Both the position numbers and the translations under genes were made by a program. From positions 1 to 64,000 of the forward strand of contig QEVO01000004.1 in NCBI GenBank assembly GCA_003577275.1: a DNA stretch of 64,000 nt, in the 5' to 3' direction. The notes under the pieces were generated by a model that worked only from the letters and a program-made list of their open reading frames with translations, made no database searches and was not told where the DNA came from. The stretch's first letter is position 1; every line of letters begins with the position of its first letter. This DNA is from Pseudomonadota bacterium (GTDB taxonomy: Bacteria > Pseudomonadota > Alphaproteobacteria > Sphingomonadales > Govanellaceae). This document shows positions 19,015 to 19,979 of the stretch, one piece after another.

Positions 19015-19091
19015 TGGCGGGAGTGACGGGACTTGAACCCGCGGCCTCTGGCGTGACAGGCCAGCGCTCTAACCAACTGAGCTACACCCCC
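19015..19091 (-). tRNA. tRNA-Asp (GTC)
   Basis: A full cloverleaf on the minus strand with encoded CCA. The acceptor arm GGGGGTG pairs with CACTCCC with one G-U pair, the anticodon stem CTGGC/GCCAG encloses loop CTGTCAC, and the T loop is GTTCAAGTC. The GTC anticodon gives Asp. It lies between nuoA and the tRNA-Val region, a typical alphaproteobacterial place. Confidence 0.97.
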
Positions 19092-19164
19092 GTGGGTGGG
19101 CGTGGTTTAGGGCAGATACCCCATACTGTCAAGCCGCTTTTGGCTGACGGTGAAGGCGGATGGC

Positions 19165-19195
19165 GGGCGATGACAGGCTCGAACTGCCGACCCTC
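19165..19195 (-). repeat. Duplicated 3' end of tRNA-Val (31 nt identical)
   Basis: These 31 nt are identical to 19350-19380, the T-arm and acceptor 3' half of the intact tRNA-Val gene, and are followed by GCCA where the intact copy has ACCA. The 5' half of a tRNA is missing, so this is a partial copy, not a gene. Such 3' duplications are typical of integrase attachment sites, or may come from tandem duplication. Confidence 0.85.
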
Positions 19196-19201
19196 CCCCG
19201 C

Positions 19202-19313
19202 CGCGTGTAGCGCGGCTATCAAATAAACCACCCGCGTGTAGCGCGGCTATCAAATAAACCACCCGCGCTTAGCGCGGCTATCAAATAAACCACCCGCGCT
19301 TAGCGCGGCAGTC
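19202..19313. repeat. 31-bp tandem repeat, about 3.6 copies
   Basis: Units begin at 19202, 19233, 19264 and 19295 with an exact 31-bp period; the fourth decays after about 19 bp. Each unit holds a short palindrome. In units 3 and 4 it is CCGCGC-TTA-GCGCGG, and in units 1 and 2 the CGCGTGTAGCGCG variant. No unique spacers exist, so this is a tandem repeat and not a CRISPR array. Confidence 0.9.
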
Positions 19314-19345
19314 CAATAATATCTGAGAGGGTCTCTAACCAGGAA

Positions 19346-19421
19346 TGGTGGGCGATGACAGGCTCGAACTGCCGACCCTCTCGGTGTAAACGAGATGCTC
19401 TACCAACTGAGCTAATCGCCC
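19346..19421 (-). tRNA. tRNA-Val (TAC)
   Basis: A complete cloverleaf on the minus strand with encoded CCA. The acceptor arm GGGCGAT pairs with ATCGCCC, and anticodon stem TCTCG/CGAGA holds loop TTTACAC. The TAC anticodon gives Val. Its 3' 31 nt recur at 19165-19195. Confidence 0.97.
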
Positions 19422-19528
19422 GCGATGCCAATGATCAAGATCGCCGGCCCCGTTTATCACCAGCGGACGGCACCTGTAAAGCGCCGAAAAAAGCGGCATG
19501 TTTCACTTTGAGCCGCCCGCGGGTCGAC

Positions 19529-19618
19529 AGGCCTGTCCTGAGCGACGCCGCAAGCGGCGTCGAAGGGATCACCTCGAACGGCTCTCCCCTCCGTTCGCCC
19601 TGAGCTTGTCGAAGGGCG
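19529..19618. repeat. Palindromic repeat with CGCCCTGAGCTTGTCGAAGGGCG core
   Basis: Two hairpins: GACGCCGC-AA-GCGGCGTC (about 19542-19563), flanked by GTCCTGAGC and GAAGGG, and CGCCCTGAGCTTGTCGAAGGGCG near 19596-19618. The TGAGCxxxTCGAAGG core is a known dispersed repeat type in alphaproteobacteria. It lies between tRNA-Val and the hupB terminator. Confidence 0.7.
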
Positions 19619-19638
19619 CATGGGACCAGGAGACCTTG

Positions 19639-19677
19639 CAAAAAACGACAGCCGCCCTTCTGCCGGACGGCTGTCGT
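19639..19677 (-). terminator. Intrinsic terminator of hupB
   Basis: On the minus strand a 10-bp perfect stem (ACGACAGCCG with CGGCTGTCGT), extended by a further near-match and a loop of about 13 nt, runs directly into a T-tract (the A run at 19639-19645 on the plus strand). It lies 27 nt past the hupB stop. Confidence 0.9.
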
Positions 19678-19703: not shown

Positions 19704-19979
19704 TTACTTATTCACGGCATCCTTGAGCGCCTGGCCGCCGCGGAAGCGGACCTGCTTGGACGCATCGATCTTGATGGCCGCGCCGGTGCGCGGATTGCGA
19801 CCGGTGGTCGCCTTACGGGTGGCAACGGAGAACGTGCCAAAGCCGACGAGACGCACCTCATCCCCCTTTTTCAGGGCGACGGCAATGGAGTCCGTCATCG
19901 CATCAAGAGCTTTGGTCGCATCCGCTCTAGTCAAACCGGCCATATCAGCAATAGCGCTGATCAAATCGTTCTTATTCAC
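19704..19979 (-). CDS. hupB: DNA-binding protein HU
   Basis: A 91-residue histone-like protein that bends and compacts DNA. The family pattern is clear: MNKNDLISAIA at the N-terminus, the GFGTFSVATRKATTGRNPRTG beta-arm region near residue 47, and a Pro-free RFRGGQALKDAVNK end. The start is a GTG with GGGGGA a few bases upstream. It lies downstream of lon, the usual lon-hupB order, with its own terminator. Confidence 0.97.
   Translation of the reverse strand: MNKNDLISAIADMAGLTRADATKALDAMTDSIAVALKKGDEVRLVGFGTFSVATRKATTGRNPRTGAAIKIDASKQVRFRGGQALKDAVNK

Follow-up and report, generated by a model that had tools for sequence, protein, structure and literature searches.

The window, that is the whole 64,000-nucleotide stretch of DNA analysed here, comes from a 3.25-Mb genome (labelled G000), where it forms the beginning of contig C4. 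Its minus strand carries, in gene order, the nuo operon, tRNA-Asp (19015–19091), tRNA-Val(TAC) (19346–19421), HU (19704–19979), lon, clpX, clpP and tig; the neighbouring genes were named by eye from their translations and from established gene order. The tRNA-Val gene is intact, with anticodon TAC and an encoded CCA (ARAGORN; Rfam tRNA model, 66.7 bits). The next gene downstream is tRNA-Asp(GTC), a neighbour that is conserved in relatives. Between the two tRNA genes, all on the minus strand, lie a unique 36-bp spacer running from the 3' end of tRNA-Val to the first hairpin (19310–19345), a 31-bp tandem array (19201–19309), a partial, attR-like copy of the tRNA-Val 3' end (19160–19195) and an ancestral-looking flank reaching to tRNA-Asp (19092–19159). 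This flank includes an apparent tRNA-Asp promoter (TTGACA...CCTAAA), which was spotted by eye and is absent from the listing of the consensus scan; the TTGACA lies ~28–54 nt past the CCA of tRNA-Val or of the fragment in G000, G002 and G009.

The partial copy comprises tRNA positions 42–76 plus 1 nt and forms with 19345–19380 a pair of 36-nt repeats, 185 bp apart, that differ at one position (97% identity). The exact recurrence of the last 31 nt of tRNA-Val, which had been claimed from the sequence, was confirmed (19165–19195 and 19350–19380). However, these 31 nt are the core and not the limit of the repeat, for the copy continues on the CCA side, with GCCA in place of ACCA. The single mismatch thus falls on the discriminator base, A73 in the gene and G73 in the copy. 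The fragment has sharp boundaries, is situated downstream of tRNA-Val, shares the orientation of the gene and extends to its 3' end. Since only ~1e-9 exact self-matches of 31 nt are expected by chance in 64 kb, the fragment is beyond chance. A second genomic site of the 36-nt block was not found in G000, and a tRNA 5' half was undetectable upstream of the fragment. As originally predicted, neither an integrase ORF nor a cargo gene is present in the interval between tRNA-Val and the fragment, and no PF00589 match was obtained anywhere on contig C4. The tRNA-Val 3' end also matches two viral contigs; as phage att sites these were rejected, for they hold full tRNA genes and no fragments.

The array was delimited by TRF to 3.5 units with 97% matches, in good agreement with the ~3.6 copies of a palindromic 31-bp repeat that had been predicted, and is the sole strong array in the window. 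Read on the tRNA strand, a unit consists of CCGCGCTAAGCGCGG or CCGCGCTACACGCGG followed by GTGGTTTATTTGATAG, the array containing four CCGCG-loop-CGCGG hairpins. No other copies of the unit were found in the G000 genome. Terminator-like hairpins on the tRNA strand number five in the region, compared to 1.2 expected, and three of them are within the array. Their U-tract is poor (GTGGTTTATT), although the T-rich tails score as terminator-like. As a guess from these features, the array hairpins, which resemble weak intrinsic terminators, could end the tRNA-Val transcript.

Within the genus, a single further genome was retrieved, a MAG labelled Sphingomonadales bacterium by its submitters (JACFMS010000004.1; G001). 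It aligns with G000 over ~36 kb at 93% identity, rising to ~96–97% from tRNA-Val to clpP. The tRNA-Val gene is the same in both genomes, the fragment is identical at 36 of 36 positions, and the spacer and the flank are also identical. The array of G001, in contrast, has two hairpins (1.5 units) versus four (3.5 units) in G000, and the locus is shorter by exactly 62 bp (2 × 31); the spacing from fragment to gene is 123 bp in G001 and 185 bp in G000, and the interval between tRNA-Val and the fragment is 88 bp and ~150 bp, respectively. The two species therefore differ in the array by whole units, whereas the tRNA fragment is fixed and older than the split of G000 and G001. The order of the hairpin loops (AAG, AAG, ACAC, ACAC in G000; AAG, ACAC in G001) is consistent with two duplications of one unit each on the way to G000, or with the reverse deletions on the way to G001. 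The comparison of unit number among relatives that the original prediction had proposed thus identifies the array as a VNTR. It shares with bacterial minisatellites the head-to-tail repetition of its 31-bp unit and the whole-unit length differences between related genomes, and differs from them in nothing notable, its unit bearing a palindrome. Whole-unit changes in such arrays are conventionally explained by replication slippage assisted by hairpins. The original prediction had also called for a search for relatives with an island between the two tRNA-Val copies and had held that it would be contradicted if every relative shared the arrangement and none carried an insertion. No island was found at this position in G000 or G001, and the arrangement is fixed in both, although these are two genomes only.

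A sample of 398 genomes of the order (G000, G001 and 396 others) was searched for the fragment, recognised by any base but the tRNA's own A standing before the 3' block. It was found in G000 and G001 alone and in none of the 396 others. These were also devoid of the 31-bp unit save for one match with three mismatches in G144, which was treated as chance. An exact GTDB-wide scan of 84,980 species, from which G000 itself was possibly excluded, returned the 3' block with a non-A discriminator in G001 only. In the family relative G003, tRNA-Val and tRNA-Asp are each present once and are separated by a gene for a GNAT-like acetyltransferase, and in other relatives small membrane proteins occupy this position (all named by eye from translations); no integrase was recognised between tRNA-Val and tRNA-Asp in relatives. 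The contig of G002 terminates inside tRNA-Val and is uninformative for the fragment. The distance from the fragment to tRNA-Asp, 68 bp, is within the range of ~20–180 bp seen between adjacent tRNA-Val and tRNA-Asp genes of relatives. In addition, the flank following the fragment is weakly closer to the tRNA-Val flank of G003 (SW 20, p 0.023) than is the flank of the intact gene (SW 13, p 0.23), these being two of several comparisons made. Both the spacing and the flank similarity suggest that the 3' end of the gene formerly lay at the fragment, and that the interval is an insertion separating it from the tRNA.

Mapping of islands by Islander requires a tRNA 3' fragment on the downstream side, oriented like the gene and extending to its end (PMC4383910). 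The tRNA-Val locus presents all of these features, but differs from an Islander-type attR in that an integrase in or overlapping the interval is lacking, as is cargo, and in that the interval of ~90–150 bp falls far outside the 2–200 kb range. As for occupied and empty sites, both genus members share the short form, and more distant relatives are without the fragment. A genuine island in the same genome serves as a positive control. This island of ~21.9 kb (C1:163377–185327) begins at tRNA-Phe (163377), encodes an integrase beside it (163608–164102) and ends with an exact 52-nt displaced 3' fragment (C1:185276–185327). Both loci have a tRNA 3' fragment displaced downstream; that of tRNA-Phe starts in the anticodon loop, whereas the 36-nt fragment of tRNA-Val starts at the end of the anticodon stem, and the tRNA-Val interval has no genes.

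The geometry of the fragment matches the Islander footprint and therefore argues for a mobile element. In the cases examined, prokaryotic partial tRNA copies have mostly come from mobile-element integration (PMC9897764). The reading that we prefer, and regard as having about an even chance of being correct, is that the fragment is the displaced attR-like 3' end left by an ancient tRNA-Val-targeting element whose interior was deleted, and that the array arose by palindrome-assisted slippage. Before the genus diversified, an element recombining with the 3' half of tRNA-Val(TAC) would have integrated, its own 3' half restoring the gene and the 3' half of the host being displaced downstream to 19160–19195. 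The interior, including any integrase, would have been lost later by internal deletion, leaving an interval of ~90–150 bp in which the 31-bp hairpin unit may have arisen, its copy number then shifting by replication slippage. The locus displays the fragment with its sharp boundaries and orientation, a distribution confined to the genus, the two-unit difference and no integrase or cargo; from these we infer the integrase origin, the internal deletion and the slippage.

A tyrosine integrase that excises its element precisely joins attL to attR by recombination, so that a single copy remains. Two copies lying so close together thus point to internal deletion and not to excision, and the original proposal of a scar left by an excised island is mechanistically unlikely; the remnant ends of an internally deleted element describe the locus better. 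The attL/attR footprint on which that proposal drew holds as far as the geometry of a displaced tDNA fragment goes, but finds neither an integrase or cargo nor a relative with an island. The suggestion of a site still open to integration has nothing in its support apart from the intact tRNA gene. The locus is a commonplace genome scar with no active element now. It is real, ordinary and mostly explained, a genus-specific tRNA-Val 3'-end relic beside a minisatellite.

The integrase origin of the fragment is itself an evenly balanced matter. Counting against it are the lack of an integrase, of cargo and of an occupied- or empty-site relative, the small interval, the absence of fragments of this tRNA from all other sampled genomes of the order, and the shortness of the identity block, 36 nt ending 1 nt past the CCA; a simple duplication would look similar. 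It is quite possible, if short of probable, that the 36-nt copy was placed by illegitimate recombination, hairpin template switching or repair copying with no integrase involved, the array again growing by slippage. The short spacing in both genomes and the lack of mobile genes accord with such a duplication, the intervening palindromes favour template switching, and the locus demonstrably changes by whole units. The original alternative that slippage made both repeats fits the array; the tRNA end, however, was copied without the spacer contiguous to it, whereas simple slippage copies a contiguous unit. Moreover, a copy that reaches the CCA end plus 1 nt is typical of an att block. A literature search on partial tRNA duplication by slippage yielded nothing useful, and with only two genomes of the genus an old relic is not to be told from an old duplication. 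That the fragment is a decayed tandem duplicate of the whole tRNA-Val, with the 5' half lost, is improbable. Tandem tRNA-Val copies do exist elsewhere in the order, in a different family (for example three at 117-bp spacing in G048 and two each in G012 and G033), but the family relative G003, which has both genes, has a single tRNA-Val. Local alignment of the interval to tRNA-Val positions 1–42 gave p 0.3–0.6 (dinucleotide shuffles), a tRNA-like reading of the last hairpin fails to fold as a tRNA, and Rfam reported no tRNA match there even at E<=10; a full decayed copy was rejected on these three grounds. The interval was likewise not supported as a tandem copy of the region upstream of the tRNA (p 0.115).

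In Escherichia coli, the tyrT gene is followed by repeats, each beginning with a piece of the tRNA 3' end, for which a selected RNA (rtT) has been suggested. The tRNA-Val locus resembles tyrT in that the tRNA 3' end recurs downstream of the gene, with similar spacing, but here the 31-bp unit is without a tRNA piece, the tRNA fragment is single and the Rfam rtT model gave no match at E<=10. A selected RNA made up of the fragment and the hairpins is very unlikely. In its favour, the 138 non-tRNA bp of fragment, spacer and promoter flank contain no substitution between G000 and G001, whereas the neighbouring genes differ by ~3–4%; the excess of terminator-like hairpins and a stable fold (z −3.7) point the same way. 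Identical runs of 100–200 bp are nevertheless common in this stretch, so that the 138 bp can be accounted for without invoking selection on a fragment RNA, and constraint on the fragment region was rejected, such runs being locally unexceptional. The conserved DNA is also partly tRNA-Asp promoter, and the array is restricted to one genus, within which it differs by two units. It would be more surprising still if fragment and array were a 3' trailer under selection, the displaced 3' half rivalling the true one for the tRNA 5' half and so tuning tRNA-Val maturation, with hairpin number setting the effect.

If the fragment does stem from an integrated element, the locus is a small instance of a tRNA-targeted element being outlived by its own ends. 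The array is a minisatellite in which two congeneric species differ by exactly two units. The locus also cautions against scoring a tRNA fragment as an island or an excision scar when no integrase accompanies it.

Several minor observations were made in the vicinity. In G001, contigs C56 and C17 break off at points corresponding to 19094 and 18172 of the window; the ~920 bp of G001 concerned (tRNA-Asp, nuoA and the start of nuoB) are unassembled or rearranged, and an insertion there is possible. A possible frameshift at nuoB/nuoC was discounted, as the overlap only reflects the nuoC frame running on upstream. The spacer carries at 19323–19333 the sequence GAGACCCTCTC (tRNA strand), nine bases of which are the exact reverse complement of GAGAGGGTC in tRNA-Val (19372–19382); it could pair with the tRNA or the fragment in a transcript, and the alignment is within chance (p ~0.16). 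Between tRNA-Val and HU, ~147 bp (19493–19639) are missing from this spot in G001. This stretch contains the palindromic motif GCCCTGAGCTTGTCGAAGGGC (19597–19617), which, with ~10 copies in G000, ten in G001 and none in G003, looks like a dispersed REP-like repeat.
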